Source of the DNA: a virus
DNA length: 40,516 bases
Reading direction: 5' to 3' (one strand)
IMG/VR virus record: IMGVR_UViG_3300038441_001922
Location: 1-40,516 of that record
Under the pieces are notes generated by a model, which had not been told where the DNA came from, did not search any database, and was given only the letters and a program-made list of their open reading frames with translations. Each line of letters begins with the position of its first letter. Within the stretch, counting starts at the first letter, position 1. The position numbers and the translations under genes are program-made. Below are positions 2,762-39,261 of the stretch, one piece after another.

Positions 2762-3913
2762 TCACACCCGCATCGGCATCAGCACATACATTGCCCCCGC
2801 CCGTGCAGGGTCATGCACCACCATGGGTGAGCCCGGATCCGCGAGCCGCATCTCCAATGCCTCCCCCTCACCCTGGGAGAGGATGTCGAGCAGATATTTG
2901 GCGTTGAAGCCGATCTCCAGGTTGCCGGCGGAATAGTCGGCCTCCACCTCGTCCGATGCCGAGCCCGCGCCCTCGCCGCCCTTGGATGACAGCACCATGC
3001 GCCCATCCGACAGTTCGATCTTGACCGCCGCGCCGCGCTCGCTGGCGATGGTGTTGACCCGGTCCACGGCCGCGGCGAGCGGGGCGGTCTTCACCTTCAG
3101 GATCTTGTCGTTCCCCTTGGGCACCACCCGCTGGTAGTCCGGGAAGGTGCCGTCGATCAGCTTGGAGGTGAGGGTGACGGTGCCCACCTCGAAGCGGATC
3201 TTGGCTTCCGAAACCGCGATCGACACGGCGGTGTCCGGCACCTCAAGCAGGCGCACCACCTCGTGCACTGTCTTGCGGGGGAGGATCACGCCGGGCATGC
3301 CCTCGGCGCCGGCCGGCAGCGGCATCTCGGCCTGGGCGAGGCGATGGCCGTCGGTAGCCACGGTGCGCAGGGTCGGCGCCCCTCCGGCCGCGTTATCCAC
3401 CTTGGCGGGATGCAGGTAGATGCCGGTCAAGTAGTACCGGGTCTCCTCCGTCGATACGGCGAAGCGGGTGCGCTCGATCAGCCGCTTGAGGTCGGCGGCC
3501 TGGAGCTCAAAGCGGTGGGTGAGATCGCCAGGGGAAAGGTCGGGGAAGTCGGAGGCGACGATGGTGGCGAGCGTGAACCGTGATTTGCCCGCCTTGAACA
3601 CGACGCGGCCGGCGCGGCCGTCATCCGTGCTGGCATCGTATGTGATTGAGATCTGCGCCCCGTCAGGGAGCTTGCGGGCGATGTCGTAGAGCGTGTGGGC
3701 AGGCACCGTGACGGCGCCAGGCGTGGACACGTCCGCGCGCACGCCCTCCTCCACCTCGCGGTCAAGGTCGGTGGCGCGCAGGGTGAGGCCGCCGGCGCCG
3801 GTGGCACGCAGGAGGATGTTGGAGAGAATGGGAATGGTGGTGCGCTTCTCGACCACGCTCGTGACGTGGGAGAGGCCGCGGATCAATTCGCTGCGGTCGA
3901 TGGTGAGATTCAT
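2762..3913 (-). CDS. dnaN: DNA polymerase III beta sliding clamp (phage-encoded)
   Basis: The 383-aa product has the length and the whole pattern of DnaN: the start MNLTIDRSELIRGLSHV, the family motif TTIPILSNILL at about 26-36, TDLDREVEE at about 48-56, the inter-domain segment YYLTGIYLH, TDGHRLA in domain 2 and the terminal YVLMPMRV which closes the third domain. Three clamp domains are therefore complete. The clamp forms a ring dimer on DNA and tethers polymerase. A phage copy may redirect host polymerase or mismatch and translesion enzymes to phage DNA. It lies downstream of the DUF2303 gene, after a strong hairpin. Confidence 0.95.
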   Translation of the reverse strand: MNLTIDRSELIRGLSHVTSVVEKRTTIPILSNILLRATGAGGLTLRATDLDREVEEGVRADVSTPGAVTVPAHTLYDIARKLPDGAQISITYDASTDDGRAGRVVFKAGKSRFTLATIVASDFPDLSPGDLTHRFELQAADLKRLIERTRFAVSTEETRYYLTGIYLHPAKVDNAAGGAPTLRTVATDGHRLAQAEMPLPAGAEGMPGVILPRKTVHEVVRLLEVPDTAVSIAVSEAKIRFEVGTVTLTSKLIDGTFPDYQRVVPKGNDKILKVKTAPLAAAVDRVNTIASERGAAVKIELSDGRMVLSSKGGEGAGSASDEVEADYSAGNLEIGFNAKYLLDILSQGEGEALEMRLADPGSPMVVHDPARAGAMYVLMPMRV

Positions 3914-4912: not shown

Positions 4913-5293
4913 CTACTCCGCCGCGTTCACCCGGCGCACCTCGCCGGTGTCGGGCATGCGCACCACCTTCGCATCCCCTGCCTGCGGCACGGCCTGCCGC
5001 AGATACGGCAACTCTGCCTGCGCCGGGTCGTCCCGGAACAGCTCGTTGCCGTTGCCGACGAAGAACGTGGTGGCCTCGCGCGGATGCTCGGGCTCCTTGG
5101 CCGACATGATGCCGGCCACCTTCACGGTGCGGCGCCCCGTGGGTGCGATGCCCAGGGTGATCTTGAGCACGCCGGGCCGGCCGGTCTCCATCACCGCCGC
5201 CACGATCTTGGCCCAGGCCGCGTCGAGCTCGGCGGCGAGCCGGCCGCCTTCCAACTCGGCAATCACCTCTGCCAGTGTCTTTCCATCTGCCAT
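4913..5293 (-). CDS. Phage early protein upstream of DUF2303, 126 aa
   Basis: The product starts MADGKTLAEVIAELEGG and has an alpha-helical N-terminus followed by a beta-rich core (GVLKITLGIAPTGRRTVKVAG) and an unstructured charged end. Proteins of this pattern precede DUF2303 genes in several phages, but I know of no assigned function. Its start overlaps the stop of the MT-A70 methyltransferase gene by one base, so they are translationally coupled; 84 bases separate it from DUF2303. Confidence 0.75.
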   Translation of the reverse strand: MADGKTLAEVIAELEGGRLAAELDAAWAKIVAAVMETGRPGVLKITLGIAPTGRRTVKVAGIMSAKEPEHPREATTFFVGNGNELFRDDPAQAELPYLRQAVPQAGDAKVVRMPDTGEVRRVNAAE

Positions 5294-5976
5294 CAGGCGC
5301 CCTCCTCTGTTGCGCTGTCTGACCTATCGAATTTCCCGATTTGATCCCCCCACGCCAGCCATCGACTCCGATTTGTTCGGGAGAACAATTCAACTCGCCG
5401 TGCGTGTGGCATCAACGACTCACATGCGGCGTAAGCTGCCTCAGGCTTGCGCGAGTGCTCTCGCACCTGCCCGACCACGAGATTGCGCACGGCCTTGCCC
5501 TCGATCTTCGGCTCGCCGATCGCGCCGATGACAAAAGGCTCGCAGGAGGAGCGCAGCACATACCCCGGCCCGAAAGCCGCCTTGTCGTTGACGGTGCGCT
5601 TGGCCCAGGCCCCCATAGTGACGTAGCGGAACCCCCACCGCTGCATCACCGCGAGCTGCTGCGGCAGCATCGGCGCCGTGCACCACAGCCAGAGGAGGCA
5701 GCCCGACGATGCAGCCAGGTCGCCCACTGGCAACGCAGCGATCTCCTCCAAGGACATGGTGGCGTAGTGCTTCTGTGGGGACTTGCCTTCCCCCTTGGGG
5801 CTCCAGACGTGGAACCGCCACGGCGGATCCGCCATGATGAGATCGACGCCGAACATGGAGAGAGAGCCGAAAGGCCAGCCGCCTGTTGCCGCACGCACGG
5901 GGGCCGGAACCGTCAAATGCGATTTGATGGTTGGGGTGGGCTCCATGTCGGGGAACAGGGTGGGCTGGTGGAGCAT
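5293..5976 (-). CDS. MT-A70 family adenine-N6 methyltransferase
   Basis: The 227-aa product carries the MT-A70 catalytic motif DPPW at residues 50-53, preceded by GVDLIMA, and the downstream family block with MSLEEIAALPV, LWLWCTAPMLP, WGFRYVTMGAW and a SRKPEAAYAACESL segment. The family transfers a methyl group from S-adenosylmethionine to the N6 of adenine in DNA or RNA. Phage members modify phage DNA, which can protect it from restriction. It sits directly downstream of a second adenine/cytosine-N4 methyltransferase, overlapping its stop by one base. Confidence 0.92.
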   Translation of the reverse strand: MLHQPTLFPDMEPTPTIKSHLTVPAPVRAATGGWPFGSLSMFGVDLIMADPPWRFHVWSPKGEGKSPQKHYATMSLEEIAALPVGDLAASSGCLLWLWCTAPMLPQQLAVMQRWGFRYVTMGAWAKRTVNDKAAFGPGYVLRSSCEPFVIGAIGEPKIEGKAVRNLVVGQVREHSRKPEAAYAACESLMPHARRVELFSRTNRSRWLAWGDQIGKFDRSDSATEEGA

Positions 5977-7436
5977 CAGGCGGGCCCCTCCTGCATCAAT
6001 GCCTCCAGGGGTGTCGGTGGCAGCTTGGCGGCGGTAACATCCGCCATGGTGCCTTGCTTGCGCTCCAGTCGGTCTCGGGCGATGCGCTTCTCGGCCATCT
6101 CCTTGTTGACCGGGTCGATGTCGATCAGGACAGCGTCGCGCCCCAGGCGATCAGCTACCATGCCGACGGTGCCTGAGCCGCCGAAGGGGTCGAGCACCAC
6201 GGCCGGCACAATGCCGGCCTCGGGCCCGTGCTCGCATGGGAGCGCCCAGCCCAGCGTCTCGCGCTGCGTGCTGCCGCGGGGGAAGCCGTCCCAGCCGTTC
6301 GAGTCATCCATCGTCTTCTGACCCTCGGCGCCGTTGACGCCCTGCGCTGGAGACACGTCCGGTTGCGGGAAGAAGGTCGCCACGGTCTGCCGCACCCATG
6401 GGGCCCCGCACTGAGTGCAGCATCCGTGCGCGCTGGTGCCTGCCTTCACGCACCGCTCCGCCAGCGCGCTCGGGAACGTGGCGTAGTGTGCATCCGGAAA
6501 GGGTTCGGTGGGGATGACCCACACATCCCTGCAATTGCGCGTCGCCGGCGCGGCGCCGTCCGCTTCCCCCCCATCCCAACGGCCGTTGAAGCCGTGCTTG
6601 CGCCTGTCGCCCGTCGTCTCGTTCTTGCGGCCGTCCCATTGCCGACTCATGCCGGTCTGTGGTGGCGTGCCTGGTGGCCGGGCCCCTTCCTTGCAGGCCA
6701 CAGCGCGGGCAGTGGGCCGCCCCTTCTCCCGCCCCTGCCGATGGAAAGACCCGTGGCCACCCGGGCCCGTATCCCAGCCGTCCGGCATCTTGGACTTGCC
6801 CGGCTGCCAGGACGCGGGCTCGGCGATCGCCTGGGCATCGTAGAAGTAGGCAGCCGACTTGGAGAGCAGGAACACGTACTCCTTCGCCGGCGTCGGTCGG
6901 TCCGTCACGCTGGACGGCATCGGGTTGGGTTTGTGCCAGACGATATCCGAGCGCACCCACCACCCGTCGTCCTGCAGCGCGATGGCGAGGCGGTGCGGCG
7001 CCATGCAGAGGTCCTTGGGCTTGAGCACGGGCCCGAACCTCGGCCCCGCGCCTACACGCACGTCGATCGGCGTCAGGTCGTGCAGCTTCGGCCCCCCACC
7101 CACATGGCCGTTGCCCCGCAGCGTGGATTTGGAGCTCGGCGCCGCGCCTCGTTGCCCAGCACCGGGGCCGCCGGCCCACATGTCCCCGTAGTTGAGCCAC
7201 AGCGTGCCGTCTTTGCGAAGCACCCGGCGCACCTGCCGAAGCACCTCCACCAGCTTGGCGATGTGCTCCGCGAGCGTGGGCTCCGAGCCGATCTCCAATG
7301 CCTTGTCCGGGTGGCCGCCCGGCAGGTAGCTGCGTAAGCCAAAATACGGCGGGCTCGTCACAACGCAATGCACGGACTCATCCGGCAGCTGGGCGAGCCC
7401 GGCCATCACGTCGGCACAGATGAAGCGGATGGTCAT
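5976..7436 (-). CDS. Site-specific DNA methyltransferase, beta class (N4-cytosine or N6-adenine)
   Basis: The 486-aa product has TSPPY at 27-31 (catalytic motif IV) near the N-terminus and DPFGGSG at about 416-422 (SAM-binding motif I) near the C-terminus. This motif order defines the beta class. SPPY leaves N4-cytosine or N6-adenine both possible. The middle (about 200-340) is a low-complexity Gly/Arg-rich insert plus a CxxCxxP-type cysteine pair (CCTQCGAPW), probably part of target recognition. Its start overlaps the ASCH gene by four bases. No cognate restriction gene is visible, so it acts as an orphan modification enzyme. Confidence 0.93.
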   Translation of the reverse strand: MTIRFICADVMAGLAQLPDESVHCVVTSPPYFGLRSYLPGGHPDKALEIGSEPTLAEHIAKLVEVLRQVRRVLRKDGTLWLNYGDMWAGGPGAGQRGAAPSSKSTLRGNGHVGGGPKLHDLTPIDVRVGAGPRFGPVLKPKDLCMAPHRLAIALQDDGWWVRSDIVWHKPNPMPSSVTDRPTPAKEYVFLLSKSAAYFYDAQAIAEPASWQPGKSKMPDGWDTGPGGHGSFHRQGREKGRPTARAVACKEGARPPGTPPQTGMSRQWDGRKNETTGDRRKHGFNGRWDGGEADGAAPATRNCRDVWVIPTEPFPDAHYATFPSALAERCVKAGTSAHGCCTQCGAPWVRQTVATFFPQPDVSPAQGVNGAEGQKTMDDSNGWDGFPRGSTQRETLGWALPCEHGPEAGIVPAVVLDPFGGSGTVGMVADRLGRDAVLIDIDPVNKEMAEKRIARDRLERKQGTMADVTAAKLPPTPLEALMQEGPA

Positions 7437-9485: not shown

Positions 9486-10507
9486 GGCGCCACCCGCGAG
9501 AACCCCGCGGCCGCAGGGTGCCCTCCCCCGCCAAGGGTCGCCGCGATCTCGGCGACGTTGGTGCCACCCTTCCGGGACCTGAGCGACCACGCCTCCACCC
9601 CGTTCCCCTTGCGCGCCCACGTTGCCGCAAAGGGTGCATCGGGGTGGAGCTCCAAGAGCTTGTTCCCGCAGTCGGAGGCGTACTGTCCGGGGCAGTTCAA
9701 GACCGGGACGGTATGGCCTGCCACCTCCTCCATGTAGGCATTGGAGCACAGTTCGGCGACCAGCTTGGTGTGGTGGCGGAGGATGGGGATACCCTCGTGC
9801 TCTAGCCGGGCCAGACCCGAGCCCATGACCCAGTTGTCGAAGGCGTGGAACGTCGCCGGGTAGGAGTGCAGCGCCTTGGAGATCTCCTCCGTCAGCCGCA
9901 ACGCGTGCCGGAACAGGTCCCGGTCCTCGATGTGCTCCAGCAGCCTGGGCATGGGCTCGCCGGGATGGCAGAACTCCCAGGCCAGGCGGGCGCCGGACTT
10001 GGACATGTCGAAGCCGACGAACAGCTTATGGACCCAGCTCAGAGTCGACAGATCTACGTCATCACCGTGATGGTCCGCCGACAACCAGTAATCGACCAAA
10101 TCGATGGTTGGCATGGAGCAACAAACAAGGCTGAGCCCAAAGTCATCCTGGTCGAGCCAGTGGCCTCTTAGCGCGCCTTCCTGATTACCGAACTCCTTCT
10201 CCGCGCTCTTGTGATGGTCGAGCACCACGATGGACTTGGCGAGCTTGGCCGCCTCGATCATGGCTGGACGCTTCAGGCTGTAGTCCACCATCAGCACGCG
10301 CTTGCCCTCGATGTCGGGGAGTGCCCCGCCGTACTGCATGGGGACGTAGACCGGGCCGGTCTTGTAGGGCGCCTTCTCGCCGCCGTCGTCGCCCCATTTC
10401 CGCCAGCAGGCCCACGCCGCTGCAAACCCGTCCATGCACCCCGGTCCATGGTAGATCACCACGTCGGGGCACCACTCCGCTTGCATCGCCTCAGTCGCGT
10501 TGCTCAT
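9482..10507 (-). CDS. DHH/DHHA1 family phosphoesterase
   Basis: The 341-aa product has the DHH superfamily layout: YHGPGCMDGFAAAWA at 19-33 (with the metal-binding Asp/His region), the second metal motif VDYS at about 74-77, VVLDHHKSAE with DHH at 97-99, and the DHHA1 glycine motif GGGGHPAAAGF at about 326-336. Members hydrolyse short RNAs (nanoRNase), cyclic dinucleotides, or act as 5'-3' ssDNA exonuclease (RecJ). The compact length and the missing RecJ OB domain favour a small-oligonucleotide or cyclic-dinucleotide phosphodiesterase. In a phage it could recycle nucleotides or blunt a nucleotide-signalling defence; the latter is speculation. Confidence 0.9.
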   Translation of the reverse strand: MSNATEAMQAEWCPDVVIYHGPGCMDGFAAAWACWRKWGDDGGEKAPYKTGPVYVPMQYGGALPDIEGKRVLMVDYSLKRPAMIEAAKLAKSIVVLDHHKSAEKEFGNQEGALRGHWLDQDDFGLSLVCCSMPTIDLVDYWLSADHHGDDVDLSTLSWVHKLFVGFDMSKSGARLAWEFCHPGEPMPRLLEHIEDRDLFRHALRLTEEISKALHSYPATFHAFDNWVMGSGLARLEHEGIPILRHHTKLVAELCSNAYMEEVAGHTVPVLNCPGQYASDCGNKLLELHPDAPFAATWARKGNGVEAWSLRSRKGGTNVAEIAATLGGGGHPAAAGFSRVAP

Positions 10508-11154
10508 CGTCCCACCCTCTCCTTGAGCGCGGCATCATGTGCCGCGTTGATCTCCGCCATCGCTGCCGCCGAGCCGCCCACGTCAGGGTGTGCGGCCTTG
10601 GCCCGGGCCCTCCACGCCGCCTCGATCTCGCCGGCGGATGCCGTGCGGCCGACGCCCAGCACCTCCCACCACGCCTTGGTGGCCGTCGGCGCCGGCAGCG
10701 CGGCGAAGCCCTGGAAGGCACGGTCGAGGATGACGGCGCCGCCGTGCCGCTCGATCGCCCGCATGGCCTCCAGCGTCGCAGCGATGGCGCCCAGGTTGTC
10801 GGCAACCCGGTAGTAGGTATCGACCGCCATCACCCGCATGGGCGCGTTCGCCTTCTGCCAAAAGACGGCGACGCCGGAGTCTCCGGGCTCAGCCTGGTCG
10901 CCGCGCGGTAGGCCCGACATGTTGAGCTTGAGGTTCGTGCTCACCACCATGTCGTTGGCCACATCGACGCCCATGCGGGCGAGTTGCTCCCGCACGCGCT
11001 TGTAGCCCTCGGCAATCGAAAGCTGCGCCTTCCGGGTGCTGTTCCCGTAGGGCGATGATGTCGTCTTGGTCACGCCGAACTGCGCGCGCTTGCGGTCACT
11101 GGCGGCGGTGCGCTTCCATCCGTCGGGCCATTTCAGGGGATAGGCGGTGGTCAT
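10504..11154 (-). CDS. J-domain (DnaJ-like) phage protein
   Basis: From the ATG at 11152-11154 the product is 216 aa. The C-terminal 60 residues form a J domain: WWEVLGVGRTASAGEIEAAW, then the HPD tripeptide at about 189-191 (AKAAHPDVGG) and the last helix. HPD is what stimulates DnaK ATPase. The N-terminal 150 residues are a phage-specific region beginning YPLKWPDGWKRT. J domain proteins in phages recruit host DnaK to remodel complexes; since the operon holds an initiator with internal iterons, a role in initiation-complex remodelling, as host DnaJ does for lambda, is attractive but unproven. Four-base overlaps on both sides. Confidence 0.85.
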   Translation of the reverse strand: MTTAYPLKWPDGWKRTAASDRKRAQFGVTKTTSSPYGNSTRKAQLSIAEGYKRVREQLARMGVDVANDMVVSTNLKLNMSGLPRGDQAEPGDSGVAVFWQKANAPMRVMAVDTYYRVADNLGAIAATLEAMRAIERHGGAVILDRAFQGFAALPAPTATKAWWEVLGVGRTASAGEIEAAWRARAKAAHPDVGGSAAAMAEINAAHDAALKERVGR

Positions 11155-11363
11155 CTGCCCTCCTTGCCCGGCACCCTGCTCGGCGCATCCTCCACGCACA
11201 CCCACCGCGCCAAGTCGCGCCACCCGCCCCGGCTCCACTCCGCCGTCATCGCCCGGCCGGCCGCCTCGCACGCGGCCCTGGAGGAGAACTCGATGTGGTC
11301 GATGGCGACACCGCCCTTCTCGGCGGTGAGCCAGATGGCAAAGATCAAGACCCAGGTCTTCAT
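11151..11363 (-). CDS. Small exported protein with two Cys, 70 aa
   Basis: The product starts MKTWVLIFAIWLTAEKGGVA, a short signal-like hydrophobic stretch, followed by the pattern EFSSRAACEAAGRAM...RWVCVED. One Cys in a helix and another in a C-terminal strand is a recurring design of small phage-encoded periplasmic proteins with one disulfide. Function unknown. It overlaps the next gene by four bases. Confidence 0.65.
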   Translation of the reverse strand: MKTWVLIFAIWLTAEKGGVAIDHIEFSSRAACEAAGRAMTAEWSRGGWRDLARWVCVEDAPSRVPGKEGR

Positions 11364-11605
11364 GGCATCCCCTCGTTGCCAGGCGCCGGCAGCGCGAGCA
11401 CCGCGGCGGGCGCCGCCTCATCGGCCGGCGTTATGTCCTGCTTGTCGTAGCTGCGCACGAGATCTTCGGCTCGACGCAGCGAATACTGCGCCGCTTCAAA
11501 CTCCTGCTTGACGCGGAGAAAGTGCTCCCGCTCGATGTCAAGCAGCCACCGCGCATGCTCCTCCGCGGTGCGGTGATACGAACGAGCGCCAAGGTGAAGA
11601 CCCAT
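11360..11605 (-). CDS. Small helical protein, 81 aa
   Basis: From the ATG at 11603-11605 the product starts MGLHLGARSYHRTAEEHARW and forms one long amphipathic helix (about 14-57, EEHARWLLDIEREHFLRVKQ onwards) with an Ala/Pro-rich end. Coiled-coil character is likely. The longer frame upstream overlaps the zinc-type gene and lacks protein-like composition. No function known. Confidence 0.65.
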   Translation of the reverse strand: MGLHLGARSYHRTAEEHARWLLDIEREHFLRVKQEFEAAQYSLRRAEDLVRSYDKQDITPADEAAPAAVLALPAPGNEGMP

Positions 11606-11847: not shown

Positions 11848-12540
11848 TCACTCCCCCTCCGGCCTCTTGTCGATCACCTGCTTGTCGATGCTCCAGCACG
11901 GCCGGGCCGCCACCCGGCATCGCACGTGGCTGTCGATCACCCGCTCGCCTGTTCCGGAGTGCCAGCACTGCTCCATCCGGTCGGTCGCCTCATTCCAGTT
12001 GGTCCAGGGCTCGCCCAGGATGGAGCGCACGGTGCCGCGCCAGTTCTCCTTGCCCCGTTCTGCTGCGGTCGTGTCGCTGCGCTTGTATTCGGAGGTGGTG
12101 ACGTGGATCTGCTCCTGCAGGCACAAGCGGCGGTCCTTGCCGTCCTCGATCCAATCGGCGTGGTAGGTGCCCCAGCCGGGGGCTGGGATGCGGTAGGGGG
12201 CGACGTGCTTGCCGCCGTAGCCGCCGCGACGTGCCCAGCGCTTGCCGCCGGCGCCGCCTGCGTAGACGCGCTCGTAGTGCTCCGGCACCTTGCGCACCGT
12301 CACGTACTTGGTGACGGGGATGTGCTCGATGGTGGAGTGCCTCAATGCCTTGCGCCTGCCCACGATGGGGCGGCCGTTGCCCAGGGCCTCCGCAATCCAA
12401 GCCTCCTGGTCATAGGCATGGGCCTTGGGGAGTACCCCCAGCATCACGGCGCCGACGAACAGAACGTAGAGACAGATGGCCAGGAGGAGGGGGAGCAGGG
12501 CACGCCAGATGGCGGCGGGGGTGATGGGGTGCGGGGTCAT
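11848..12540 (-). CDS. Membrane-anchored or exported protein, 230 aa
   Basis: A hydrophobic segment at about 14-37 ends in KAHAYDQ, which could be a signal-peptidase site (AHA|Y). The rest is soluble and polar, with Gly/Arg-rich YAGGAGGKRWARRGGYGGKH near the middle and five cysteines in the second half, suitable for disulfides outside the cytoplasm. I do not recognise the family. The gene overlaps the C5 methyltransferase gene upstream by four bases. Confidence 0.65.
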   Translation of the reverse strand: MTPHPITPAAIWRALLPLLLAICLYVLFVGAVMLGVLPKAHAYDQEAWIAEALGNGRPIVGRRKALRHSTIEHIPVTKYVTVRKVPEHYERVYAGGAGGKRWARRGGYGGKHVAPYRIPAPGWGTYHADWIEDGKDRRLCLQEQIHVTTSEYKRSDTTAAERGKENWRGTVRSILGEPWTNWNEATDRMEQCWHSGTGERVIDSHVRCRVAARPCWSIDKQVIDKRPEGE

Positions 12541-13988
12541 GCTGCGGTCCTCAATTGCTCAAACAGGTCGATGCGGACGCCGATCCACGTCATGCAGTTG
12601 ACGGCCATGCTGTTGCCGAGGGCCTTGTACCGCGGTCCGTCGGCCGCCTTCCGTCCTCGGTAGGGCACGTCGGTCCAAGAGTCCGGGAAGCCCTGGAGGC
12701 GCTCCCATTCGAGGGGCGTGAGACGGCGCACAGCCCAGCCGTGGGCGTGGTGCGCGAGCGCAGGCGCATGCGCATGCGCATGCGCAGCGAGCGGATGACA
12801 CGGCCCACCGTCAACAGGCTGGCAGCGATTGCCCTTGGAGGTGATCTGCGTGGTGTCGAAGGGGATGGCTATCGCGTGCGCAACGAACGTCTCGCTCTCG
12901 AAATCGCCATGACCGGTGCCGCCCTTGGCCCTGCAGGCTGTCGCCACGTCGACGGGACCCGCCGTGTTGTTGCCGCCGAAAGCGATGGCTAACTGGCCTC
13001 CGGCGTTGGCGTGGGAGGCGTCGTGACCCATCGCGCGGAGCGTCGGCGCAACGTCCTCCTGGAAATCGGCGCCGTAGTCCTTGGACGAGAAGGCGACCAG
13101 CATGCCCATCTCGGCATCCTGCTGTGTCGCCGAGCCGGCCGCCTTGCCGTTGTGGTTCAGGGTGCCGGTGATCTCCGGGATGTACGTTTCCTGGTCGTCG
13201 GCGTTGGCGGCTGCCCGTCCTCTAGCTGCGCTGAGGGGCTTGGCGTACTCCGGGACGAGATGGTTGGCTGCGGCTTCCCGCCGGCCAACCCTGCCGCCAC
13301 TGCGCTCAGAGCCTGCTCCAAGGCTGCCGGCAACCGCTTGTCCCGCTTGGCGGCGCGGCGGAGGATGCCCGCGCAGGCCTTCGGGCTCAAGTAGTACCGC
13401 CGCAGGTGGTCGCCAGTCTCCAAGATATCCGACAAGGAACACACGCTCCCGTCGCTGTGGGACGGCCCAAGGGTGCGATTCCACTCGCACGAATTGAGCG
13501 TCCAGGACACGCCAGCATGCCGAATACCCGCACTCCTCCAGGGTGTCGAGGAATGCCCCGAAATCACTGTCCTCGTCGCCTTCCCAGCATTCGCCGGGCG
13601 CGAGATCCTCATCCTCCGGCGCACCGGACCAGTTGGAATGCACGCCAGGGACGTTCTCCCAGACCACCCACCGGGGGCGCAGTCGCCGAGCAAGCCGACA
13701 AAAGTCGAGCGCCAGGTTGCTACGCGGGTCATCCAGGCCGAGGCGCTTGCCGGCGACGGAGAAGCCTTGGCAGGGGGTGCCTCCAACGAGAAGGTCGATT
13801 GGGCCGACATCGGCTGCGGTGATCCTGGTGAAGTCGCCGAGGTTCGGCACATGGGGGAAGCGGTGGGCGAGGACGGCGGAGGCGAACGGATCGATCTCCG
13901 CGAACGCGGAAGGCGTCCAGCCGAGCGGCTCCCAGGCAACGCTGGCCGCTTCGATGCCGCTGCACACCGAGAGATACCGCAAGCTCAC
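12537..13988 (-). CDS. DNA cytosine-5 methyltransferase
   Basis: From the GTG at 13986-13988 (GTGA overlap with the upstream gene) the product is 483 aa. Motif I is LSVCSGIEAAS (about 6-16), motif IV GGTPCQGFSVAGKR with catalytic Cys73, motif VI WENVPG with ENV at 111-113, motif VIII QRRER at about 178-182, and motif X YKALGNSMAV near the end. All are intact. The target-recognition region between VIII and IX is long and includes a His/Ala run encoded by tandem GCGCAT units (12763-12787). It methylates C5 of cytosine in DNA; no partner nuclease is present, so it likely protects phage DNA. Confidence 0.95.
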   Translation of the reverse strand: MSLRYLSVCSGIEAASVAWEPLGWTPSAFAEIDPFASAVLAHRFPHVPNLGDFTRITAADVGPIDLLVGGTPCQGFSVAGKRLGLDDPRSNLALDFCRLARRLRPRWVVWENVPGVHSNWSGAPEDEDLAPGECWEGDEDSDFGAFLDTLEECGYSACWRVLDAQFVRVESHPWAVPQRRERVFLVGYLGDWRPPAAVLLEPEGLRGHPPPRRQAGQAVAGSLGAGSERSGGRVGRREAAANHLVPEYAKPLSAARGRAAANADDQETYIPEITGTLNHNGKAAGSATQQDAEMGMLVAFSSKDYGADFQEDVAPTLRAMGHDASHANAGGQLAIAFGGNNTAGPVDVATACRAKGGTGHGDFESETFVAHAIAIPFDTTQITSKGNRCQPVDGGPCHPLAAHAHAHAPALAHHAHGWAVRRLTPLEWERLQGFPDSWTDVPYRGRKAADGPRYKALGNSMAVNCMTWIGVRIDLFEQLRTAA

Positions 13989-14515
13989 GGCCCCACCCTC
14001 CCCGACCGCGTATAGCTCCGCGCATGCCGCACCTTGGCCGACTTCTCCGCCGGCGTAGGCCGTACCAGGGAGGAGACCCGCACCCGCCCTGCCTTGTCGG
14101 GGAATGGGTAGCGGCAGACCATCGGCCCCGCTGCCGGCGTCACGCTGCGCCTGGGCGGCGCTTCCGCCGCCGGCGGTGGCACCAAGATGGCCGATGCCGG
14201 CCGCCACCCCTCGATCCGCTCCAGCAGATGGGCGGCAAGGCGCGCCAAGTCCGGATCGCCGGCGCGCAGCGCGGCCTCGGCCCGGCGCGCGCCCTTGCGC
14301 ACCGCGCCATCGGGCTTGTCGAGCACGGCCGCAATCGCTCCGACCGCAATGCCCTGCCTTCGGGCGAGGTACATGGCGAGGTTGCGCACGCGGGAGACGC
14401 TCGGCGTCTTCTCCGATCCGCGCATTTCCGACAGGGTGAGGCCGGCCTCCCGGGCTGCGATCTGCATGATCGCGTAGGCGTTGGGCTTGGCGTTGTGGCG
14501 GCCGTCGACGGTCAT
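13985..14515 (-). CDS. DnaA domain IV-like DNA-binding protein
   Basis: The 176-aa product contains, at about 13-80, a segment resembling the DnaA C-terminal DNA-binding domain: helices around AYAIMQIAAREAGLTLSEM, then the basic-loop to helix pattern SVSRVRNLAMYLARRQGI, and AIAAVLDKPDGAVRKGAR where DnaA has the helix-turn-helix that reads DnaA boxes. The signature 'RHxTV' is not exact (KPDGAVRKG). The rest is Pro-rich and disordered with no ATPase domain. Such solo domain-IV proteins in phages may act as repressors, or compete with DnaA at its boxes. Assignment is by pattern only. Confidence 0.7.
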   Translation of the reverse strand: MTVDGRHNAKPNAYAIMQIAAREAGLTLSEMRGSEKTPSVSRVRNLAMYLARRQGIAVGAIAAVLDKPDGAVRKGARRAEAALRAGDPDLARLAAHLLERIEGWRPASAILVPPPAAEAPPRRSVTPAAGPMVCRYPFPDKAGRVRVSSLVRPTPAEKSAKVRHARSYTRSGRVGP

Positions 14516-16003: not shown

Positions 16004-16392
16004 AGGGGCAGCTCCGGTCTGGCGTTGGTCTCAGCCGCCTGGACGGCGGCCCGTTGCGCGGCCTCGGCCTTGCGGCGCGCCTCCTGCGCCAGCTTGGCCA
16101 CGTCCCGCGCCGACAGCGGCCGCTCGATCGGCTTGGCACCGGCCCTCTCATGTCCCTCGGCCGCGGCCTCCGAGCCGTCGTCCACGATGGGGTGGGCGAG
16201 GTGGGCCGGCATCTGCCGGCGGAACCGGTGGGCGATCTTGGCCATGTAGGCGGCCTGCTTCGCCGTGAGAGGCACCTGCGGGGCGTGCTCCATGTGGGCG
16301 ATCATGTTGCGGGCGAAGCGCTTGGCGGCCGTCGCCGGCGGGAAGGACACGTTGCGGAAGGCGCGGGCGATGGCGATCTCGCGGGGGGTCAT
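16000..16392 (-). CDS. Hypothetical protein downstream of initiator, 130 aa
   Basis: From the ATG at 16390-16392 (ATGA overlap with the initiator gene) the product starts MTPREIAIARAFRNVSFPP and is helical and basic. The block FARNMIAHMEHAPQVPLTAK followed by QAAYMAKIAHRFRRQMPAHL is a recurring pattern in alphaproteobacterial phages. Position directly after a replication initiator is where lambda-type phages place a helicase loader, but no ATPase motif is seen and the assignment is open. Confidence 0.7.
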   Translation of the reverse strand: MTPREIAIARAFRNVSFPPATAAKRFARNMIAHMEHAPQVPLTAKQAAYMAKIAHRFRRQMPAHLAHPIVDDGSEAAAEGHERAGAKPIERPLSARDVAKLAQEARRKAEAAQRAAVQAAETNARPELPL

Positions 16393-17480
16393 GGGCGGAC
16401 CTCCGTTGCCTGATGGGTGGGTGGGTGCATGGTCGGCACCCGCACAAAGCCGTGCCGCTCCATCAACTCCACCTTGCGGTCCTTGCGCTCCCGGTAGTGG
16501 GCGAGCCATGCCGCGAAGGCTCCGGGGTGCTTGCGTACTGAGATCGTGGTGAGCCCGTCCGGCTCCACGGCGGCAGCTCCAGGCCTGTCGACGGTCAATG
16601 CGACGCCGATGCTGCCCTGCACCGCGCGGACCGCTTCCACGAAGTGCTCGCTGCGGACCGTGACCTTGCGCGCCTCGAGCAGGCGATGCGCCGCGGCTCG
16701 AAGCAACGTCTCGGGGAGCGCCGCCTCGGCCGCCCACTTCGCAATCTCGGCGATGACGTAGGCCGGATCGGGCGCGTCGATCTGGCGCTGCCGGAGCACG
16801 GGCTCGATCAGGTGCGCCACCGCTGCGGCCCACTCGGCCTTGGTGCGCAGAGAAGCGAGGAGGTGCCCGACCTCTTGAGGAGAATTTAAGTTGTCCCTCC
16901 CTCTCTCCCCCCGAGCGCGCTTGCGCGCTTGGGGGGTAGGGGGGCGAGGGTCGACATGATCGATATGATCGATACGCGCGCGTGTAGTCTTTACCGGGCT
17001 CTGAGGGGGTGTCGCCTCCAGGGCGACACGGGTGTCGCCTACAGCGGACACTGGTGTCGCCTGTACACGACACTCCCCCCCCTGGGGGGTGTCGCCTGTA
17101 GACGACACTCCCCCCCCTGGGGGGGTGTCGCCTGTACACGACACTCCCCCCTCCTCGTCGCGGTCGATCACGATGCGGTAGAGGCAGAAGCTCTCGCCGC
17201 TTTCGGCCTGCGATTGCTTCTCGATGTAGTGCCAGTCGACCAGCTCGCGCACCGCGGCGTTGATCGCCTGCCGGCCCACGCCGAACATCTCGGCGAGCCC
17301 CGCCTGGGAGAGCCGGCACCAGCCCTTCTTGTGGTTGAAGCGGCCAAGGTGAGACAGGACGCGGAAATGCACCAGCGTCAATCTCAGGTCGGTCGCCGTT
17401 CGTCCGGCCATGATCGAAAACCTTGCATCCTCGCCGCGCTCGCCACGGCCGTCCCAAACGAATGTGTGCTTCTTGGCCAC
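16389..17480 (-). CDS. Winged-helix replication initiator-like protein with internal iterons
   Basis: The GTG at 17478-17480 is chosen because GGGGAAGG precedes it; a TTG start 24 codons upstream has no such site. The 363-aa product has an N-terminal helix-turn-helix (LVHFRVLSHLGRF, RLSQAGLAEMFGVGRQAIN, AVRELVDWHYIEK) followed by a strand with YRIVIDRDE, then a Gly/Thr/Pro-rich linker made of repeated 'SCTGDTPP'-type units, and a helical C-terminal domain. This mirrors lambda O: DNA-binding N-domain, origin repeats encoded in the linker, C-domain for partner binding. It is the first gene of the 16-kb leftward operon, which contains J-domain and clamp genes. Confidence 0.8.
   Translation of the reverse strand: MAKKHTFVWDGRGERGEDARFSIMAGRTATDLRLTLVHFRVLSHLGRFNHKKGWCRLSQAGLAEMFGVGRQAINAAVRELVDWHYIEKQSQAESGESFCLYRIVIDRDEEGGVSCTGDTPPGGGVSSTGDTPQGGECRVQATPVSAVGDTRVALEATPPQSPVKTTRARIDHIDHVDPRPPTPQARKRARGERGRDNLNSPQEVGHLLASLRTKAEWAAAVAHLIEPVLRQRQIDAPDPAYVIAEIAKWAAEAALPETLLRAAAHRLLEARKVTVRSEHFVEAVRAVQGSIGVALTVDRPGAAAVEPDGLTTISVRKHPGAFAAWLAHYRERKDRKVELMERHGFVRVPTMHPPTHQATEVRP
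16914..17144. other. Candidate replication origin: five GTGTCGCCT iterons plus side repeats
   Basis: On the + strand GTGTCGCCT starts at 17009, 17032, 17054, 17089 and 17125 (steps 23, 22, 35, 36). Four copies are inverted repeats: 17009-17029 (GTGTCGCC, 5-base loop, GGCGACAC), and 17054-17073, 17089-17108 and 17125-17144 (GTGTCG, 8 bases, CGACAC). To the left are two tandem ATGATCGAT units (16956-16973) and a GC palindrome AGCGCGC-TT-GCGCGCT (16914-16929). The block lies in the linker part of the initiator gene, as oriLambda lies in gene O. Weakness: no strongly AT-rich unwinding element is present in this GC-rich DNA. Confidence 0.65.
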
Positions 17481-20687: not shown

Positions 20688-20764
20688 TGGTTGCGGGGGT
20701 TGGATTCGAACCAACGACCTCCAGCTTATGAGGCTGGCGAGCTACCGGGCTGCTCCACCCCGCA
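20688..20764 (-). tRNA. tRNA-Met (CAT), initiator-type body
   Basis: A 77-nt tRNA with CCA encoded at 20688-20690. The anticodon loop is CTCATAA (anticodon CAT). The D arm, GAGC-AGCCCGGTA-GCTC, has the A11-U24 pair and loop typical of initiator tRNAs. Two identity features differ: position 1 is U facing A72 (a weak pair, not the usual C-A mismatch), and the anticodon stem is CCAGC/GCTGG, so of the usual three G-C pairs (29-31 with 39-41) only 30-40 is G-C in that orientation. It may still start translation, or it may have shifted towards elongation. Encoded by the phage on the early-left strand. Confidence 0.9.
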
Positions 20765-38540: not shown

Positions 38541-38617
38541 CGGGGTGTAGCTCAGCTTGGTGGAGCGGCTGGTTTGGGACCAGCAGGTCGGAGGTTCAAA
38601 TCCTCTCACCCCGACCA
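38541..38617 (+). tRNA. tRNA-Pro (TGG)
   Basis: A 77-nt cloverleaf with CCA encoded. The acceptor pairs CGGGGTG/CACCCCG; the anticodon stem is GCTGG/CCAGC around TTTGGGA, anticodon TGG. The T arm has GGAGG-TTCAAAT-CCTCT with a weak pair. It is the first of three tRNA genes read rightward. Confidence 0.9.
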
Positions 38618-38621
38618 GAAT

Positions 38622-38698
38622 GCCAACGTAGCTCAGTTGGTAGAGCAGCCGCCTTGTAAGCGGCAGGTCGGGGGTTCAAATCCGCCCCGTTGGCACCA
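38622..38698 (+). tRNA. tRNA-Thr (TGT) with bulge in the T stem
   Basis: The acceptor GCCAACG/CGTTGGC and anticodon arm GCCGC-CTTGTAA-GCGGC (anticodon TGT) are regular; CCA is at 38696-38698. The T stem pairs GGGGG with CCGCCC and so leaves one G bulged: one base more than a standard tRNA-Thr. The tRNA may work less well, or the base may be a sequencing error. Confidence 0.85.
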
Positions 38699-38751
38699 CC
38701 GCCTTTGCAAGCATTCCGATCAGTTTGCGCACTTGCGCAAGTTGATGGGTT

Positions 38752-38827
38752 GCGCTCGTAGCTCAGAGGATAGAGCATCCGGTTCCGAACCGGGAGGCCG
38801 CAGGTTCGACTCCTGCCGAGCGCGCCA
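38752..38827 (+). tRNA. tRNA-Arg (CCG)
   Basis: A 76-nt cloverleaf with acceptor GCGCTCG/CGAGCGC, anticodon loop TTCCGAA (anticodon CCG), a regular T arm (GCAGG-TTCGACT-CCTGC) and CCA at 38825-38827. The gene ends two bases before the holin-like gene's stop on the other strand. Confidence 0.9.
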
Positions 38828-38829
38828 CA

Positions 38830-39261
38830 TCAAGTGCCGGCCGTCTCCTCTGCCGCCCGCTTCTCCTCCAGTTCCTGCTTGTCCGCGAGGTGGCGCAGGA
38901 ACACGACCGCGAGCAGCACACCCGTCACCCAAAGGGAGACGGCACCCCAGTCGATCTTGAACCACTTGGCCACCTCCTCCGTGGTGACGAGGGTGGTCTT
39001 CACCTCGCCGGCCACATCGGGGAGGGCACCGACGGCCCACACGATCACATCCCACAGCTGGGGGAGCCAGTCGGTGAGCCAGGCGACGGCCTTGAAGGTG
39101 CCGGCCACCAGGATGGCCACCAGGGTCTTGGAGCGGCGGACGGTGCGGAGGGTGCGCGCAGACTTGGCCATTCGCGCCCGAAGCTTCCGGGGTTTGGCGT
39201 CCGGCTTTTTGTCCGCTTTTGCACCTGGGGTTTGGGCTTGCGCAGTCATGGGTTGGCGCAC
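38830..39261 (-). CDS. Holin-like membrane protein
   Basis: The product is 143 aa from the GTG at 39261 or 139 aa from the ATG at 39249. The N-terminal 45 residues are Lys/Arg/Pro-rich. Hydrophobic segments (about 46-62, 68-80 and 108-126, WVTGVLLAVVFLRHLADK) are followed by a charged C-terminus (EEKRAAEETAG). The size, charged end and location between the amidase and spanin genes suggest a holin or holin-like protein. The exact topology is not certain. Confidence 0.6.
   Translation of the reverse strand: MRQPMTAQAQTPGAKADKKPDAKPRKLRARMAKSARTLRTVRRSKTLVAILVAGTFKAVAWLTDWLPQLWDVIVWAVGALPDVAGEVKTTLVTTEEVAKWFKIDWGAVSLWVTGVLLAVVFLRHLADKQELEEKRAAEETAGT

Follow-up and report, generated by a model that had tools for sequence, protein, structure and literature searches.

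A likely phage replication origin of the lambda plan inside a winged-helix initiator gene

In a viral DNA stretch of 40,516 bp, an IMG/VR virus record which was analysed whole and is called here the window, five short repeats lie in the middle of a gene for a winged-helix protein. The question is whether this array is the origin of replication of the phage and, if so, how the protein would recognize it and open the DNA. Iteron origins inside initiator genes have long been known. Taken as a whole, the observations are best explained if the array is a theta-type phage origin that follows the lambda plan and lies within the gene of its own initiator. Judging by the sequence comparisons given below, we consider this reading very probable.

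The initiator gene and its repeat array

The replication initiator gene (complement(16389..17480)) encodes a protein of 363 aa and has matches in Pfam and PHROG. Its GTG start lies at 17480, with a Shine-Dalgarno-like AGGGGAAGG directly upstream. The protein matches Pfam MarR_2 with E 7e-9, and it matches the phrog_270 profile, "replication initiation protein", with E 9.8e-9 over residues 10-136 of the query. The PHROG "replication initiation O-like" families match it at E 1.7e-4 to 1.5e-3, and the match to Pfam Phage_rep_O is weak (E 0.08, 13.9 bits with a cutoff of 28.7). The protein consists of an N-terminal winged helix, a disordered linker and a helical C-terminal domain. The winged-helix DNA-binding domain (residues 20-106; 17163..17423) is covered by MarR_2, HTH_36 and phrog_270 matches and is the confident part of the AlphaFold model, in which the block-mean pLDDT of residues 21-100 is 84-97, residues 112-176 of the linker are disordered, and the helical C-terminal part has moderate confidence. 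Structural neighbours found in the PDB with Foldseek are winged helices of the MarR, SmtB and CodY types, all of them weak (best E 0.011). Residues 70-82 (RQAINAAVRELVD; 17235..17273) are predicted to be the recognition helix from the AlphaFold model and from covariation over 47 genes.

No helicase or loader gene was recognized among the window proteins scanned, many of which are small and without a match, in a record that is possibly incomplete. Among these proteins there was likewise no adjacent phage helicase loader (P) or helicase of the kind that makes up a lambdoid O-P module. Therefore, we class the locus by its origin layout and not as such a module. The following further genes lie on the minus strand. 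A DnaA C-terminal-like helix-turn-helix is encoded at 13985-14515, a few genes from the initiator (Bac_DnaA_C 1.6e-6, below the cutoff); in the Devosia SL43 plasmid a helix-turn-helix gene of the replication-initiation type likewise lies near the initiator. The window also encodes a complete DNA polymerase III beta clamp (2762-3913) and, in the leftward module, three DNA methyltransferases (12537-14207, 5293-5976 and 5976-7436). There is a cluster of tRNA-Pro, tRNA-Thr and tRNA-Arg genes (38541-38827) and a tRNA-Met gene (20688-20764). The latter resembles phage tRNA-Met genes at about 86-90% and was the sole match found in a search for DNA-level relatives in phages.

The repeat GTGTCGCCT starts at 17009, 17032, 17054, 17089 and 17125, i.e., with steps of 23, 22, 35 and 36 bp. 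Five copies were observed with 0.59 expected, none of the shuffles reached five, and there is no further copy in the whole window, all five lying between 17009 and 17133. The copies each form the left half of a dyad, GTGTCG-N8/9-CGACAC. The first in the sense of the gene is iteron 5 (17125..17144, GTGTCG-CCTGTACA-CGACAC), which together with flanking G/C runs folds as single-stranded DNA with -13.2 kcal/mol. Iteron 4 (17089..17108, GTGTCG-CCTGTAGA-CGACAC) and iteron 3 (17054..17073, GTGTCG-CCTGTACA-CGACAC) follow, so that units 3, 4 and 5 all have the form GTGTCG-N8-CGACAC. Iteron 2 (17032..17051, GTGTCG-CCTACAGC-GGACAC) has one imperfect arm and the weakest fold, -5.3 kcal/mol. Iteron 1 (17009..17029, GTGTCGCC-TCCAG-GGCGACAC), with 8-bp arms and an N5 centre, is the nearest to the low-stability segments described below. 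An exact 6-bp inverted arm is thus present in units 1, 3, 4 and 5, and the arm of unit 2 has a mismatch. The switch in spacing from 22-23 to 35-36 bp does not correspond to simple helical phasing. A preliminary description of the locus had reported five repeats at these steps in the linker-coding part of the gene, four of them with an inverted arm; the count, the shuffles and the gene frame bear this out. The interval that it gave for the array, 16914-17144, is too wide. The iterons occupy 17009-17144, and 16914-17008, which is free of iterons, contains a GC hairpin and a segment richer in AT.

The iterons encode residues 113-157, that is, the linker after the winged helix. Their copies occupy codon phases 0, 1 and 2, so repetition in the protein does not account for them. 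The gene has four exact GTGTCG dyads; 1,999 of 2,000 synonymous shuffles had 0-2, and one had 3. When dyads were counted with 5-bp arms, the window gene had 5, and among 3,000 synonymous shuffles one reached 4 and none reached 5. The use of all three codon phases together with the excess over synonymous shuffles indicates a constraint on the DNA itself: the iterons of the window are conserved as DNA, beyond coding need. The exact iteron was absent from all other viral contigs searched.

Related initiators and the recognition of the half-site

Relatives were picked by the winged-helix protein sequence alone and then reduced to 59 non-redundant genes. The relatives found are distant from the window initiator, being about 20-25% identical across the whole protein and 31-35% in the winged helix. 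Close relatives were found neither in viral contigs nor in genome contigs, tblastn gave no match in phages, and the same array was not seen in a close relative among those gathered. In 54 of the 59 genes, one and the same dyad is repeated three or more times in the 400 nt after the winged helix, as compared with 0.17% of synonymous shuffles. The half-site varies among the groups of the family (GTGCCC, GTGCCA, TGCCG, GTGTCG, TGTGAC and ACAAGC). With the same arrangement and differing half-sites, the arrangement is a property of the family and the site sequence is not. The relative L061 has an iteron almost identical to that of the window, CTGTCGCCTCACACGACAG, and its helix is also the most similar one (RQAVNDC versus RQAINAA in the window).

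Some neighbouring cases differ from this pattern. Through the adjacent "cysteine dioxygenase" gene, 18 syntenic loci were found, most of them without an initiator of the window type; one of them, L024, has dyad-like iterons of another type. Another initiator gene, in L025, which is also one of the 18 loci, carries seven non-palindromic TTTTTGGACGATT-like repeats (1439-1651) with steps of 22, 22, 35, 33, 36 and 36, close to the 23, 22, 35 and 36 of the window. The initiator ORF of L091 has four TGTAAC dyads at bases 957-1130 (steps 33, 32 and 33) beside TATATATAATAATATATA, far downstream of the winged helix, so that a similarly built origin would sit elsewhere in this gene. In the Azospirillum and Roseomonas megaplasmids L155-L157, L159 and L160, family members are divergent from another gene, annotated in L156 and L157 as "plasmid replication protein". 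It is possible that these plasmids use an initiator of the phage type. Their linkers are TGTC-rich and not clearly dyadic, and these members, being without recurrent exact dyads, were left out.

The predicted recognition helix of the family has the motif R-x-x-[VILA]-[QN]-X, and in 47 genes out of 47 residue X agrees with base 6 of the half-site. The sample that was aligned first paired GTGCCC with Arg, GTGCCA with Asn and GTGCCG with a small residue at X. Of the 47 genes, 23 combine Arg with base C, 4 combine Asn with base A, and 20 have base G together with Ala, Asp, Ser or Leu. The half-sites of the base-G class are TGCCG or TGTCG; this class includes L061 and the window, where A75 occupies the covarying position. 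All of the 19 genes that were fetched after the rule was noticed fit it, and so do phi2LM21 and Nostoc phage Nsp-JY10 from outside the original set (both Ala with TGCCG). Arg with the G opposite C, and Asn with A, are chemically sensible protein-DNA contacts. As the genes are related, the independent events matter, and only about four such changes underlie the complete match. A winged-helix tree with the recognition helix masked gave 4 base changes and 4 residue-class changes, with the Asn/A pair in two separate places; it is built on few columns, and the row of the window is a very long branch. The independent-pairs test yielded 2-3 pairs, too few to reach significance.

A second, weaker link concerns the preceding position, which is Asn with TGT (window and L061) and mostly Gln with TGC. 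By eye, the link of Asn with TGT is also present in L048, L051, L054 and L055. L048 and L051 have the helix RETVNR and TGTGA half-sites, and a Crp/Fnr structure aligns there; E. coli CRP reads TGTGA with RETVGR. Of all the observations made on these sequences, the covariation is the best evidence that the initiator reads the arms of the dyads. We lean slightly towards a joint reading of both links as a specificity code with coupled switches in this widespread family. The residue after Gln/Asn in R-x-x-x-Q/N-X would set base 6 (Arg for GTGCCC, Asn for GTGCCA, a small or acidic residue for GTGCCG/GTGTCG), and the Gln/Asn itself may set base 4, Q going with C and N with T. In the literature searched, mostly non-subscription papers, we found no description of this rule or of arrays in this family. 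If the code is true, new origins could arise by coupled switches of one residue and of one base across all iterons of the same gene, and the iteron sequence could be predicted from the protein sequence. The layout of lambda ori in a winged-helix initiator gene, proposed in the preliminary description, is thus well supported by homology, by the arrangement in 54/59 genes and by the covariation of helix and half-site.

Opening of the DNA and other roles of the dyads

The preliminary description saw no clear AT-rich element at the array. This was wrong: the two least stable segments of the gene lie just past the array, both on its gene-3' side. The first candidate unwinding segment (16951..16993), with a GATCGATATGATCGATA repeat and GTAGTCTTTA, is about 15 bp from iteron 1 and is the second least stable segment of the gene. 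By nearest-neighbour stability, only 0.2-0.7% of window positions are less stable. GATC sites occur within its part 16951-16975. The second candidate (16869..16908), a polypyrimidine/polypurine tract with GAATTTAAGTTG, contains the 25-mer and the 40-mer with the lowest stability in the gene, and only 0.1-0.3% of window positions are less stable. It is separated from the array by 100 bp, a greater distance than most relatives show, and lies beyond a near-perfect GC hairpin that separates the two segments (16907..16936, CCCCCCGAGCGCGC-TT-GCGCGCTTGGGGGG, 14-nt arms, 93% complementary). Among the relatives that were read in sequence, none had such a hairpin at this position. Such a location of the weak duplex is frequent in the family. 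In 37 of the 56 family genes that have an array, the 40-mer of lowest stability is located between -20 and +120 nt relative to the 3' end of the array, with 7.3 expected under uniform placement; the genes being related, the nominal p-value is not to be taken literally. GC skew, which the preliminary description offered as a check, has no turning point or minimum at the array; the record is linear and possibly incomplete.

By analogy with lambda, and given the position of these segments, the origin may work as follows. Dimers of the winged-helix initiator would bind the five dyads at 17009-17144, one subunit per GTGTCG half-site, and the helix of residues 70-82 would read the dyad arms, as the covariation suggests. 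Several dimers would form an O-some-like complex that strains and opens the weak duplex at 16951-16993 and/or 16869-16908. The helicase would then be loaded on the open strand by host proteins and/or a putative phage loader. We infer in this way both the dimer binding with opening of the adjacent DNA and the helicase loading with origin function of the locus. The half-site and the recognition helix may evolve together, which would give each phage a matched pair of initiator and origin.

The dyads might instead be operators through which the winged-helix protein controls transcription, with replication starting elsewhere. The winged helix does resemble regulators of the MarR and Crp types, which bind dyads. 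However, these dyads are in the middle of the gene and not at a promoter, they are present in multiple copies, always in the linker, and next to a low-stability segment. The nearest PHROG families are annotated as replication initiation. In addition, phi2LM21_p26 was independently predicted to be an initiator in a paper that does not mention iterons or an origin for it (PMC5537653). We consider the operator role unlikely.

Still less likely is an origin of the hairpin or cruciform type, in which extruded dyads nucleate opening or present a single-stranded structure to the replication machinery, so that opening differs from lambda. As single strands, all units can form a fold (-5.3 to -13.2 kcal/mol). 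Those of units 1, 4 and 5 are better than in any shuffle, and units 4 and 5 are flanked by G and C runs that extend the stems to 11-12 bp. Compensation and arm length across the family were used as the test of hairpin extrusion, and they gave it no support. In 159 perfect family dyads, complementarity falls to chance 3-4 positions past the 5-bp core, i.e., the arms are about 6-7 bp long. Arms that depart from the consensus within an array are not compensated in window unit 2, in three units of L061 and in two units of L046. Thus, arm pairing is not conserved beyond or independently of the sequence; the short arms and uncompensated changes argue against selection for hairpins and look like protein half-sites. 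The covariation of a helix residue with a half-site base is likewise what is expected for a protein-binding site, and lambda, with dyads of the same kind, works by opening the adjacent AT-rich region (PMC5043065). The J-domain/DnaK route, also suggested earlier, gains no support: the J-domain protein of the window had no match in ten records with related initiators, a weak negative that had no positive control. This protein (10504-11421, minus strand) has a C-terminal J-domain with an HPD motif fused to a phrog_9210 region. Hardly credible, and already disfavoured, is an expansion of a low-complexity linker by coding or slippage without function at the DNA level, since, although the linker is predicted to be disordered and its C8/G6 runs favour slippage, the copies lie in three codon phases in excess of synonymous shuffles, and diverged genes have arrays in the same position that differ in their half-sites.

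Comparison with lambda and other known origins

The proposal gives a probable location for the theta-type origin of a temperate phage about which little is known. The comparison also shows that the lambda plan, with dyad iterons inside the initiator gene, extends over a divergent family of initiators that is frequent in phages of alphaproteobacteria. If the rule linking helix and half-site holds, origins could be found and matched to their initiators from sequence alone, and a joint change of specificity in an initiator and in the multi-copy site array within its gene would become directly testable.

Among temperate alphaproteobacterial phages with initiators of the phrog_270 type, Bradyrhizobium phage ppBdUSDA122-1 and Sinorhizobium phage phi2LM21 (p26) have, like the window, a homologous winged helix, dyad iterons in the linker and a cytosine methylase gene in the same module. 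The half-sites in these phages are TGCCC or TGCCG, as compared with TGTCG in the window, and the low-stability segment abuts the array in most of them, unlike in the window. Iteron plasmids (P1, F, R6K and RK2) likewise have an AT-rich region beside arrays of repeats that bind the initiator.

In lambda, the iterons (ATCCCTCAAAACGAGGGA and variants) are annotated inside O at 39034-39118 (NC_001416). They are dyads of the TCCCTC-N5-GAGGGA type with 6-bp arms and a 5-nt centre. According to a review, O dimers bind to almost perfect inverted repeats in the lambda origin, and the A+T-rich region of 40 bp behind them opens when the DNA is negatively supercoiled (PMC5043065). Stx phages give a matching picture, with up to six iterons (PMC7466680). 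The earlier suggestion that palindromic iterons set this locus apart from lambda is therefore mistaken, and since lambda has them too, a special mechanism of opening is not needed. In both lambda and the window the origin is in the middle of the initiator gene, and the DNA-binding part of the initiator is N-terminal; in the window the iterons encode residues 113-157, after the domain of residues 20-106. The iterons in both are dyads with short arms, 4-5 in number and 18-21 bp long, some of them at steps of 20-24 bp (five units, four of them exact, in the window, compared directly with lambda). In both, a low-stability segment lies on the gene-3' side of the array, at 16951-16993 and 16869-16908 in the window. 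The differences are in the half-site (GTGTCG in the window, TCCCTC in lambda), in the dyad centre (8-9 nt and 5) and in the two 35-36-bp steps with C8TG6 spacers, which the window has and lambda does not. The low-stability region of the window is in two parts split by a GC hairpin; it is less AT-rich and more divided than that of lambda, and, unlike in lambda, no adjacent P-type loader was recognized. On these features of layout, we call the window locus a putative member of the lambda-type origin class.
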